DNA from: Moorena sp. SIO3I8
GTDB taxonomy: Bacteria; Cyanobacteriota; Cyanobacteriia; Cyanobacteriales; Coleofasciculaceae
DNA length: 34,033 nt
Reading direction: 5' to 3'
NCBI RefSeq assembly: GCF_010692325.1
Contig: NZ_JAAHHW010000073.1
Span: forward strand, 1-34,033
Positions 9,361 to 31,490 of the stretch are shown here, piece by piece. Every line of letters starts with the position of its first letter. Position 1 is the first letter of the stretch. A model generated the notes under the pieces. It saw only the letters and a program-made list of their open reading frames with translations, was not told where the DNA came from and ran no database searches. The position numbers were made by a program, and so were the translations under genes.

Positions 9361-9706
9361 GGTATGTTTCCTGCTGGTAAAGCTTTGGTTGTCTGTTGTT
9401 CGCGTAGCGTGGCCTATTGGCCAAGGTTGAAGGTTATCTGGTTGTTCGCGTAGCGTGGCCTTTTGGCCAAGGTTGTCTGGTTGAAGGTTGAAGGTTGAAG
9501 GTTATCTGGTTGAAGGTTGTCTGGTTGAAGGTTGTCTGGTTGAAGGTTGAAGGTTGAAGGTTGTCTGGTTGAAGGTTGTCTGGTTGAAGGTTGAAGGTTG
9601 AATGTTGTCTGGTTGAATGTTCAAAAATGCATTGTAACCTGCTAACCTGCTAACCTGCTAACCGGTTAACCTGCTAACCTGCTAACCTACTAACCTGCTA
9701 ACCTAT
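9361..9706. repeat. Two GTAGCGTGGCC palindromes followed by GGTTGAA/GGTTGTCT and CTAACCTG arrays
   Basis: Two palindrome copies (9398-9426 and 9443-9472) contain TTCGCGTAGCGTGGCC and GGCCAAGG. They are followed to about 9620 by mixed GGTTGAA (7 bp) and GGTTGTCT (8 bp) units, then by about eight CTAACCTG (8 bp) units (9637-9706). The array ends a few bases from the mutS2 stop codon. It fills almost the whole DUF3038-mutS2 gap, where no gene is visible. Confidence 0.9.
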
Positions 9707-9710
9707 GACC

Positions 9711-12272
9711 TTATTTAAGGTAAGCAACGGTAACACCAGTCCCACCCTCAGATTGTTCGGCTAGCTTAAAACGCTCCACTAGAGGGTGCTGTTCCAAGAA
9801 AGCGTGGACACCTTGTCTTAATCGACCAGTTCCTTTGCCATGAATAATCCAGAGTACTCCAAACTCTATCGCCTTAGATATTGCTTGGTCGATGTCAATC
9901 TCTGCATTAGCTACCCGACTTCCTCGAATATCAATGGTATTTTTCGAGGTGCGCACAGCCGTAGCTGGCCGCGAGACTGGGGTTGGGGCTGGAGCTGGTT
10001 TTGATGTAGGTTTTACCACATTTTCCGGCTTTTGTCCATCCAAGGATTCCACATCTGTTAGGGCAACGGTCATTTTCATTAAGCCAAAGCGTACCGTTAG
10101 TTCCCCATTATCTGCGGTACTTAGTATCTCGGCTGTCTGATTCAATCGGGGAATGCGAATGCGATCGCCTACTTTGGGGCGGAATCCTGGTTTTGGTTTA
10201 GGAGGCGGTGCGGCTGGGATTTGACGCTCGGCAATCTCCTTAAGAGCGTTTGTGGCTTTTTGGGCATTTTGAGCGGTTTGGGAGCCTTGCTGCAACTGCC
10301 GAATCACTTGGGCAATTTCTTTCTTAGCTTGTGCGATCGCATCTTGCACAGACCGTTCCTGGGAAAGCTTCAATTCCCGTTCCCGCTCCTGCAAAAGTTT
10401 TGCCCGTTCAGAGAGTTCCTGATGGAGAGATTCAGCTTGTTGCAGTAACTGATTTGCCTGTTGGGCTTTAGTTTCCTGAGTGCGCCGTTGAGCTTCTAAA
10501 CCGGCAATTACCTCATTCACATCTTCCGAAGCTCCCCCCAAAAGGGTTTGAGCCTGATCCACCACCGATGGGTTTAACCCTAAGCGTCTAGCAATGCTCA
10601 AGGCATTGGAGCGACCAGGAATACCCCACAATAGACGGTAAGTGGGTGAGAGGGTTTGGTCATCAAACTCCACCGAGGCATTCTCAAACCGCTCGTCTTG
10701 ATATTTTAGTGCTTTGAGTTCCCCATAATGCGTAGTCGCAATGGTTAATTGTGTGGTGTTTGCTAGGTATTTCAGTAATGCGATCGCTAAAGCACTGCCT
10801 TCTGCGGGGTCAGTCCCTGCTCCTACTTCATCTAATAGTACGAGTGACGCACGAGGAGTTGAAGGTTCTTCAAGGTTGGCAGGTTGAAGGTTATCTGGTT
10901 GAAGGTTATCTGGTTGAAGGTTATCTGGTTGAAGGTTATCTGGTTGTTCGCGAAGGACTTTCAACCTACCAACCTGAAACTCTTGAGAACCTCCAACTTT
11001 CAACCTGTCAACCTGTAACTCTTCTTTTGGGGTAGTTATCGCCTCAATAATTCGACTAATCCGGCGAATGTGACCCGAGAAAGTGGATAAACTCTGTTCT
11101 ATAGACTGCTCATCCCCAATATCTGCCAGAATTTGCTCAAACCAAGGAAGTTCTACTGGTTCCCTTGCTGGCACAAATAAACCCGCTTTTGCCATCAGTG
11201 CCGCTAAACCAAAGGTTTTCAACGTAACGGTTTTACCGCCAGTATTCGGACCGGTAATAGCAACTACCCGAATGTAGGACTGAATCTGGACATCAATGGG
11301 AACAACTGATGTGCCTTGTTCATGTTTTTGCTGCCATACCAGTAGAGGATGGCGTAGTTGCCGTAGAGTAATGCTTTCATTCTGATTGCGGTCAATAAAT
11401 CTGGGGGGATTGGCTTCTAACCACAGACTATATCTTGCCTTAGCGGTAGCTAAATCTAGGGTAGTTGCTACAACCAGCAACCGTTCTAAGTCTGGCTTAA
11501 CTGCTGCTACTTGTTCGGTCAACGCACGACGTACTGCTTCCGCTTCCACTTGTTCTTGCCGCCGCTGGGTCCGAAGTTGATTGCCTAAGCTAACAATGGC
11601 CTTCGGTTCCACGTATAGGGTGGCACCGGTGCTAGAGGTATCCTGAACAATACCAGGAATAGCATCTTTCTGGGGAGCTTTAACCGGGAGTACAAACCGA
11701 TCACCCCGTTGAGTAATTAACTGTTGTTGTAATGCCCCCCCTTTACGCTGGACAATCCCCTGGAGGATTTCATAAATTCGGTCTCGTAATGATTTCATCT
11801 GAGTCCGAATCCCTGCCAGCTTCGGGGTTGCCCGGTCAGCTACATCGCCTCGCTCATCGATACAACGGTGAATTTCTTGTTCAAGTTCTGGGTAAGTGCG
11901 GCTGTCAGCCACCAGTTCCTTCAGAATTGGTACATCCTCTTGGTCTTCAATAAACCGCCGTAGACGCCTCACACCAGCTAAGGTTGTTGCGATCGCTAAT
12001 AGTTCCTCACCAGACAAAATGCCTTGGAGCTCTGCCCGATCCAGAGATTCACCAATATCTTGGATGCCGTCAAAGGTTAGTCCTGTGTCTAAACTAGTTT
12101 CCAGTTGATAGGCTTCTTTAGTCTGGGCTAGCAGGTCTAGGCTTTCCGGTTGAGTTGCTGGGGGGTGGAGATAACGAGCCGCAAAGGCTCCCAGCTTAGT
12201 AGCCGCAAACGTAGCCAGGTGTTGGCACAGGCGGGACCATTCCAGTAGTTCTAAGGTTTCAGATTGAATCAA
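9711..12272 (-). CDS. mutS2: MutS2 endonuclease/recombination suppressor with repeat insertion
   Basis: This 853-aa protein is a MutS-family ATPase with a C-terminal Smr nuclease domain. MutS2 proteins act on branched DNA and, in some bacteria, on collided ribosomes. Visible features are the N-terminal clamp/core (residues 1-300), Walker A GPNTGGKT (341-348), the Walker B and signature segment LVLLDEVGAGTDPAEGSAL (about 477-495), ATTHYGELK, a coiled-coil (about 590-680), and the Smr domain from about 776 with IDIRG and HGKGTGRLRQGV. Between the Walker A half and Walker B, residues about 412-473 are an insertion. It includes four DNLQP pentapeptides encoded by the GGTTATCTGGTTGAA repeat found between genes nearby. 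Without it, the length would be near the usual 780-790. The frame is intact. The start at 12272 (MIQSETLELLEW) fits the family. Confidence 0.95.
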   Translation of the reverse strand: MIQSETLELLEWSRLCQHLATFAATKLGAFAARYLHPPATQPESLDLLAQTKEAYQLETSLDTGLTFDGIQDIGESLDRAELQGILSGEELLAIATTLAGVRRLRRFIEDQEDVPILKELVADSRTYPELEQEIHRCIDERGDVADRATPKLAGIRTQMKSLRDRIYEILQGIVQRKGGALQQQLITQRGDRFVLPVKAPQKDAIPGIVQDTSSTGATLYVEPKAIVSLGNQLRTQRRQEQVEAEAVRRALTEQVAAVKPDLERLLVVATTLDLATAKARYSLWLEANPPRFIDRNQNESITLRQLRHPLLVWQQKHEQGTSVVPIDVQIQSYIRVVAITGPNTGGKTVTLKTFGLAALMAKAGLFVPAREPVELPWFEQILADIGDEQSIEQSLSTFSGHIRRISRIIEAITTPKEELQVDRLKVGGSQEFQVGRLKVLREQPDNLQPDNLQPDNLQPDNLQPANLEEPSTPRASLVLLDEVGAGTDPAEGSALAIALLKYLANTTQLTIATTHYGELKALKYQDERFENASVEFDDQTLSPTYRLLWGIPGRSNALSIARRLGLNPSVVDQAQTLLGGASEDVNEVIAGLEAQRRTQETKAQQANQLLQQAESLHQELSERAKLLQERERELKLSQERSVQDAIAQAKKEIAQVIRQLQQGSQTAQNAQKATNALKEIAERQIPAAPPPKPKPGFRPKVGDRIRIPRLNQTAEILSTADNGELTVRFGLMKMTVALTDVESLDGQKPENVVKPTSKPAPAPTPVSRPATAVRTSKNTIDIRGSRVANAEIDIDQAISKAIEFGVLWIIHGKGTGRLRQGVHAFLEQHPLVERFKLAEQSEGGTGVTVAYLK
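10868..10952. repeat. In-frame GGTTATCTGGTTGAA array within mutS2
   Basis: There are four tandem 15-bp units (GGTTATCTGGTTGAA), preceded by AGGTTGGCAGGTTGAA and followed by GGTTGTTCGCGAAGG. The 15-bp unit is one 8-bp plus one 7-bp unit of the intergenic array at 9470-9620. The end GTTCGCG matches the start of the associated palindrome. Confidence 0.9.
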
Positions 12273-12359: not shown

Positions 12360-12600
12360 CGTGAGTATTCAGCAATCAGCACTCAGCGGTCAGCTTATTT
12401 TATTCAAAAGCTGTCTCGTTCCCGTAGCTTGGCCTACAGCTAATGGCTGATAGCTAATGGCTGATAGCACCTCAAGCAGCGTGTTCATAGGCTGATAACT
12501 GATAGCTGATAGCTCATAGCTGATAGCTGATAGCTCATAGCTGATAGCTTATAGCTGATAACTGATAGCTGATAACTGATAACTGATAGCTGATAGCTTA
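12360..12600. repeat. AGCTGAT/AACTGAT/AGCTCAT heptamer array
   Basis: Degenerate 7-bp units cover most of 12440-12600, preceded by a CCGTAGCTTGGCCTA palindrome relic at 12418-12438. The remaining 12601-12849 holds no gene that I can support. Confidence 0.85.
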
Positions 12601-23236: not shown

Positions 23237-23352
23237 TTGAAGGTTGAAAGTTGAAGGTTGAAGGTTGAAGGTTGAAGGTTGAAGGTTGAAGGTTGAAAGT
23301 TGAAGGTTGAAGGTTGAAGGTTGAAGGTTGAAAGTTGAAGGTTGAAGGTTGT
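23237..23352. repeat. TTGAAGG/TTGAAAG heptamer array
   Basis: About 16 tandem 7-bp units begin right behind the Yfr1 terminator. The array ends with GGTTGTTCGC, the beginning of the palindrome family, here followed by a diverged CTTTGGCGTTCGG. Confidence 0.92.
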
Positions 23353-31279: not shown

Positions 31280-31490
31280 TGTTCGCTTAGCGTGGGCTTC
31301 GACGCTGGGAAGTAGCCCATTAGCTGACAGCTTACCTTCAACCTTCAACCTTCAACCTTCAACCTTCAACCTTCAACCTTCAACCTTCAACCTTCAACCT
31401 TCAACCTTCAACCTTCAACCTTCAACCTTCAACCTTCAACCTTCAACCTTCAACCTTCAACCTTGGCCTTTCGGCCACGCTACGCGAACA
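31280..31490. repeat. CCTTCAA array (about 19 units) with a TTCGCGTAGCGTGGCC palindrome
   Basis: A degenerate palindrome (31280-31310) comes first, then about 19 perfect CCTTCAA units (about 31330-31463). A palindrome copy CCTTGGCCTTTCGGCCACGC (31461-31480) then continues TACGCGAACAACC. The array sits between permease and ATPase genes of one transporter. Confidence 0.92.

Follow-up and report, generated by a model that had tools for sequence, protein, structure and literature searches.

Heptamer repeats of cyanobacteria are known as STRR. The heptamer GGGGA(T/C)T of Nostoc sp. PCC 7120 is 68% intergenic (excerpts of PMC4692102), which leaves about one third of it intragenic; the same excerpts report only a few inverted heptamer pairs in Nostoc, and, for the GGGAATC heptamers of Xanthomonas, 70 and 75 convergently oriented inverted pairs. 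Rickettsia palindromic elements (RPE) are palindromic repeats inserted in frame in unrelated genes (excerpts of PMC10969869 and PMC3733652). Intragenic REPs of the GTAG and CGTC types lie inside open reading frames (ORFs), often of replication and repair genes, and GTAG families are found in cyanobacteria (excerpts of PMC3733652). MutS2 suppresses recombination in Helicobacter pylori and Thermus and promotes it in Bacillus subtilis, where its ATPase splits collided ribosomes and needs both Walker A and Walker B (excerpts of PMC12292046 and PMC10897456). Plant MutS2 genes of cyanobacterial type are called uncharacterised (excerpts of PMC12292046), and the cyanobacterial protein appears in a gene table with the annotation, not an experimental finding, that it inhibits recombination (excerpts of PMC5101192). 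Here, we describe a mutS2 gene of Moorena sp. SIO3I8 whose product carries a repeat-derived insertion.

The window is the whole stretch of DNA that was analysed, 34,033 nucleotides (contig NZ_JAAHHW010000073.1, positions 1 to 34,033 of the forward strand). Its mutS2 gene has the following features.

9711..12272, minus strand: mutS2, 853 amino acids, with MutS_V, MSSS and Smr domains.
11229..11252, minus strand: GPNTGGKT, which we take to be Walker A, residues 341-348 (from the translation; invariant columns in a 41-sequence alignment).
10827..10844, minus strand: LVLLDE, which we take to be Walker B, residues 477-482 (from the translation and alignment).
10851..11036, minus strand: repeat-derived insertion, residues 413-474, unmatched against 7qv3 and hypervariable in cyanobacteria.

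The only Pfam matches of the protein at E<=0.001 were to MutS_V (over two separate stretches), MSSS and Smr; it has the make-up of MutS2, a MutS_V ATPase with Walker A and B and a C-terminal Smr domain, without MutS domains I and II. Residues 3-412 and 475-853 aligned to B. subtilis MutS2 (7qv3), and 413-474 were unmatched. The 62-residue insertion stands where 7qv3 has two residues, after the conserved STFSGHIRRI and immediately ahead of the Walker B strand LVLLDE. The original prediction had placed a DNLQP insertion of about 60 residues at 10850..11037, which agrees almost to the codon, and its claim that an intergenic repeat family lies in frame within mutS2, between Walker A and Walker B, was borne out. 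The insert itself is composed as follows.

10882..10946, plus strand: GGTT arm, 4.3 perfect copies of the 15-bp unit GGTTGAAGGTTATCT (TRF, 100% matches); the coding strand reads DNLQP.
10946..10954, no strand assigned: centre GTTCGCGAA, the tip of the GTTCGCGTAGCGTGGCC palindrome, which has other copies in the window.
10960..11015 (about), plus strand: AACC arm, in the opposite orientation to the GGTT arm; the coding strand reads LQVDRLKV...FQVGRLKV.

The layout of GGTT arm, TTCGCGAA centre (10947-10954) and AACC arm is inverted, a point that had been missed; the arms are 90% complementary between 10873-10892 and 10995-11014. GTTCGCG (10946-10952), first taken for the end of the insert, is instead part of its centre, and the AACC arm continues beyond it in the opposite orientation. 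The palindrome expected there is represented in the window copy by its tip, the full form being absent from it; three alleles of relatives, those of G001 (as a one-base variant), G002 and L039, have the full palindrome inside the mutS2 coding sequence. Coding-strand RNA from 10855-11037 is predicted to fold at -54.4 kcal/mol (z -4.64), and 0 of 200 shuffles folded as low. Such a strong predicted hairpin might also mark an untranslated RNA-level element (intron-like or bypassed). We consider this extremely improbable given the reading-frame filter described below and the stop-free coding frame: it has zero stops; of the other five frames, one has a single stop and four have at least two.

A second inverted element lies downstream of the gene.

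9425..9621, plus strand: downstream GGTT arm, in which 7- and 8-bp units are mixed; it contains one copy of the palindrome (9444-9460).
9635..9704, plus strand: downstream AACC arm, (TAACCTGC)n, completing the inverted element, whose centre is AATGCATT (9626-9633).
9387..9475, plus strand: two copies of a 46-bp palindrome-bearing unit (GTTCGCGTAGCGTGGCC..GGCCAAGG).

The six relative loci that were read (L010, L011, L013 and L039-L041), some of which represent one genome twice, had the same plan of GGTT arm, centre and AACC arm. The downstream array had been said to share the 15-bp pattern of the insert; this is right as to the 8+7 units, but extra 7-bp units are mixed in and the octamer is mostly GGTTGTCT (five copies, versus two of GGTTATCT). 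With up to two mismatches the 15-bp unit occurs 14 times in the window versus 0.09 times expected in shuffles, and 11 of the 14 matches fall in the insert or at 9425-9610. Across the genome (7.99 Mb, 510 contigs) the insert region has 90 DNA matches, itself included. The exact 17-mer GGTTGAAGGTTATCTGG occurs seven times: mutS2 has four copies, the downstream repeats have two, and one lies elsewhere; that six of the seven lie at the mutS2 locus points to local copying or a shared origin. Other loci of the genome hold other octamer variants. A plasmid search gave no match, and a scan for promoters and terminators gave signal at the shuffle level. The window also contains further long 7-bp arrays at 84-179, 12491-12598, 23237-23351 and 31334-31464, with units TTCCCGA, GCTGATA, TTGAAGG and ACCTTCA, of which TTGAAGG and ACCTTCA are the same motif read from opposite strands.

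The bearing of reading frame on repeat period was measured with TRF in 60 stretches of 20 kb (40 from G001 and 20 from G002; 1.2 Mb in all) of two Moorena-type genomes, with ORFs as a proxy for gene calls. By this proxy 69 of 732 arrays lay inside ORFs, 92 partly inside and 571 between them, and the period was divisible by three in 55/69, 31/92 and 117/571, respectively (coding versus intergenic, Fisher 1.9e-22). For the GGTT family the corresponding fractions were 7/7, 2/7 and 8/27 (coding versus intergenic, p=0.0012), the seven coding arrays lying in five ORFs and therefore not being independent. Period 7 was seen in 258/571 intergenic arrays, and the GGTT family itself mixes 7 and 8. It also occurred in 9/69 coding arrays by the proxy, some of whose ORFs may be wrong, so a frame-shifting unit size is not barred from genes. 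A 15-bp period was found in 6/27 intergenic GGTT-family arrays. The suggestion that the frame requirement selected the 15-bp composite consequently stands as far as filtering goes and fails as an account of origin: the period is common outside genes, so frame selection filters an existing variant rather than creating it.

The named genomes closest to that of the window are Moorena assemblies. All four genus genomes searched have mutS2, each with an insert. Including that of the window, there are five distinct Moorena-type alleles, the fifth from Moorena sp. SIO3H5 (L039), and the insert varies among them in unit number and length: the segment from FSGH to Walker B measures 79 residues in the window, 76 in G001, 62 in G003, 196 in G002 and 120 in L039. 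Outside Moorena it measures 19-111 residues and has no common sequence, the shortest (19-20 residues) being those of L084, L112 and L103. Conservation of length and sequence across distant cyanobacteria would have marked an ordinary domain; with 19-196 residues over the listed loci and no common sequence, a conserved domain is rejected.

Several of the non-Moorena loops are visibly repetitive with other peptides, LSTQHS in Calothrix being one example. For eight long loops, and for eight control pieces taken from the same genes, we searched the genome of origin; 150 of 365 matches were listed. Among these, the loop of L045 had at least 38 further places in its own genome, that of L079 at least 35, that of L077 at least 35 and that of L058 at least 9; for the loops of L049, L059, L101 and L062 the matches listed held no further place, and for the controls none besides their own (0/8). 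The listed matches also placed the L079 loop in at least 13 positions of another genome (G008) and the L045 loop in at least 3 of G005; part of the signal thus comes from repeat composition that lineages have in common. Shared 10-mers between loop and flank (about 6 kb or less per locus) were positive in 9/75 loops, with a group Wilcoxon p of 0.34, the 75 being those of at least 30 nt among the 79 loops parsed from 80 loci. Of 46 loops, 11 (including four from Moorena) had a hairpin with z<-3, versus 1 of 276 control windows, and the other 35 did not; the 46, from 82 loci, are those with loops of 90 to 330 nt, L012 being too long.

Similar inserts are not confined to mutS2. Ten ORFs with insert-type peptides, reached through tblastn, were scanned, and eight had Pfam-recognised domains: TPP enzyme, RecJ, SMC, AIRS, Mfd-type, radical SAM, NFACT, and proline dehydrogenase with aldehyde dehydrogenase; the other two had no domain at E<=1e-5. 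These hosts come from the tblastn matches listed, a set biased towards ATPases and the DNLQP unit. On our reading the TPP enzyme is MenD and the AIRS protein ThiL. Dispersed repeats are accordingly inserted in frame in protein genes, in the manner of RPE. In a first 400-kb sample of G001, ORFs with a length of 200 residues or more contained 8 of the 23 GGTT arrays. Across 17 host ORFs, several of them mutual orthologues, lists of GGTT and AACC motifs gave 19 repeat clusters, of which 17 had both arms, with the GGTT arm first in each; 15 of the 19 folded with z<-2 (25 shuffles each, up to 500 nt). The NFACT protein of L029, which bears an insert of the same repeat family as MutS2, is one that we take to belong to the RqcH family, a ribosome-rescue factor; B. 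subtilis MutS2 is a ribosome-rescue factor as well. Significance had been attached to the insertion having hit a gene that limits recombination. We do not uphold this: the role of MutS2 in recombination differs by organism, and with similar inserts in eight of the ten scanned Moorena proteins, among many unrelated genes, mutS2 is rejected as a special target by role.

RecJ provides a comparison of filled and short alleles. In G002 (L193) the protein has 142 extra residues, present as an inverted insert, relative to the three other genus genomes; G000 (the genome of the window), G001 and G003 (L194-L196) have a 12-residue segment at the site and neither arm. The short junction sequence is CAGGTTGAAGGTT in G001 and CAGGGTGAAGGTT in G000 and G003. 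Even this short form is similar to the repeat, consistent with seeding by microhomology, and it may be a remnant of an older element. In related genera the site ranges from 12 to 154 residues (18 sequences, from a search of 20 genomes). The RecJ loop of L216 resembles the Symploca MutS2 loop L045 in its low-complexity peptide GDKEDKE...IPNSQ...ITNNQ.

This pair of states bears on how the repeats arrive. Perfect 15-bp units and differences in unit number show that slippage or unequal exchange acts, and the inserts might in principle be native sequence expanded de novo by slippage, with no preformed element imported. Slippage alone, however, makes no inverted arm, nor does it put the genome's palindrome in the insert, and in RecJ the two arms occur together in the filled allele and are both absent from the three near-identical ones; we judge such an origin very unlikely. 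Transposition is another candidate: a Y1/RAYT-type transposase could have mobilised a MITE- or REP-like element, whose insertions would be the copies seen in genes. The palindromic centre in its full form contains GTAG, the copies are intragenic and in frame as with RPE and REP, and the genome of the window has 13 Y1_Tnp (PF01797) matches, six of them with internal stops. Against this, neither a target duplication nor fixed ends were seen in the alleles read, and the arms are variable tandem arrays rather than defined termini, which makes movement of this kind decidedly unlikely. Two of the Y1_Tnp matches lie in 204-residue ORFs and are weak.

The arms mostly follow one order. In the Moorena-type sample (L119-L178), inverted neighbours within 250 bp were arranged with the G-rich array before the C-rich one in 20 of 24 pairs, reversed in 2 and mixed in 2, and at 77 other cyanobacterial loci (L042-L118) the G-rich array came first in 10/10 pairs, five of these in mutS2 loops. 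The order is identical when read from either strand. It was also observed to hold for several unrelated unit sequences. Among MutS2 loops, the more G-skewed half was 5' in 51 of the 55 (out of 82) that reach 60 nt. All 18 RecJ loops examined, short repeat-free ones included, likewise have the G-skewed half first, so the MutS2 figure is weaker than it appears and part of it may be amino-acid composition.

That skew could reflect a pattern of acidic residues followed by Ser and Pro, as expected if the loop were an ordinary functional linker, for example a disordered partner-binding or regulatory segment whose length the repeats only tune; most listed loci also exceed the 19-residue minimum. This account is unlikely in our view: sequence and length are unconserved, down to the 19-20 residues of the shortest loops, and the same repeats are present in proteins unrelated to MutS2 and at other places in the genome.

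The explanation that we favour, and consider probable, is that a dispersed inverted heptamer/octamer element entered the loop of mutS2 ahead of Walker B and is translated, by prediction, as a low-complexity, probably disordered linker. The repeat is dispersed in the genome, inverted and in frame, and varies in length and unit number among relatives; the MutS2 loop in some other lineages holds other dispersed repeats. The insert adjoins Walker B with both motifs intact in five alleles, which argues that the loop is permissive; the insert would then be tolerated, leaving the ATPase motifs untouched, and it is presumably disordered and at the surface. New copies may arrive by homology-driven copying between arrays, in support of which we point to an array with the identical rare unit variant 1.3 kb from the insert. 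After arrival, length would shift by slippage in whole 15-bp steps, and frame-breaking copies would be removed by purifying selection. A function of its own need not be assumed for the insert.

A broader reading is more tentative, and we give it a modest chance at most: docking loops of core proteins would be filled by each lineage's own repeats, under a head-to-head rule for the arms, and the inserts would be scars of healed breaks. MutS2 ahead of Walker B, RecJ after DWRG and perhaps other sites would be such conserved docking loops. The G-rich strand of each arm would run 5' to 3' towards the centre, like two fused telomeres, a rule that could arise if arms grew by extension of a G-rich 3' end at a break or fold-back. 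Inserts left as break scars would be kept wherever the frame permitted.

Repeat DNA has here served as raw material for a protein segment within a conserved ATPase fold, at one position in several lineages, and the reading-frame filter on such DNA can be measured. The natural long and short alleles form a test series for the tolerance of a P-loop ATPase to low-complexity sequence, and the arm-order rule offers a handle on the growth of bacterial heptamer arrays.

Among known systems, the solved B. subtilis MutS2 structures (7qv3/8qpp; 7vuf) share the Walker motifs and the MSSS/SH3-like and Smr domains with the Moorena protein; unlike it, they have no insertion ahead of Walker B. Palindromes in frame inside genes (RPE and REP) and intragenic Nostoc heptamers are already in print, as the excerpts cited above show. 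Moorena resembles RPE in having a palindromic repeat family in frame in unrelated genes, but RPE, as excerpted, measures about 150 bp and encodes a conserved peptide, and the Moorena element consists of two inverted 7/8-bp arrays of variable length in a different phylum. A GTAG REP is a stem-loop of 20-40 bp with GTAG at its end and a RAYT associated with it. Copies of the Moorena palindrome contain GTAG and may be REPs; the arms, unlike REPs, are tandem arrays. Tandem heptamers are dispersed between genes as in STRR, and the heptamer arrays are spread genome-wide like those of Nostoc and Xanthomonas; the Moorena family differs from these in unit sequence and in mixing 7- and 8-bp units. The convergent Xanthomonas pairs can be read as G-then-C order, in which case the arrangement may already be known outside cyanobacteria. 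The excerpts of PMC4692102 name no recurrently filled protein loop, unlike the MutS2 case here, and the top results from open-licence literature contained no report either of lineage-specific repeats filling the MutS2 loop or of the arm order in cyanobacteria. As far as these searches show, what is new relative to the known systems is the recurrently filled MutS2 loop, together with the G-rich-then-C-rich order of the arms in cyanobacteria.
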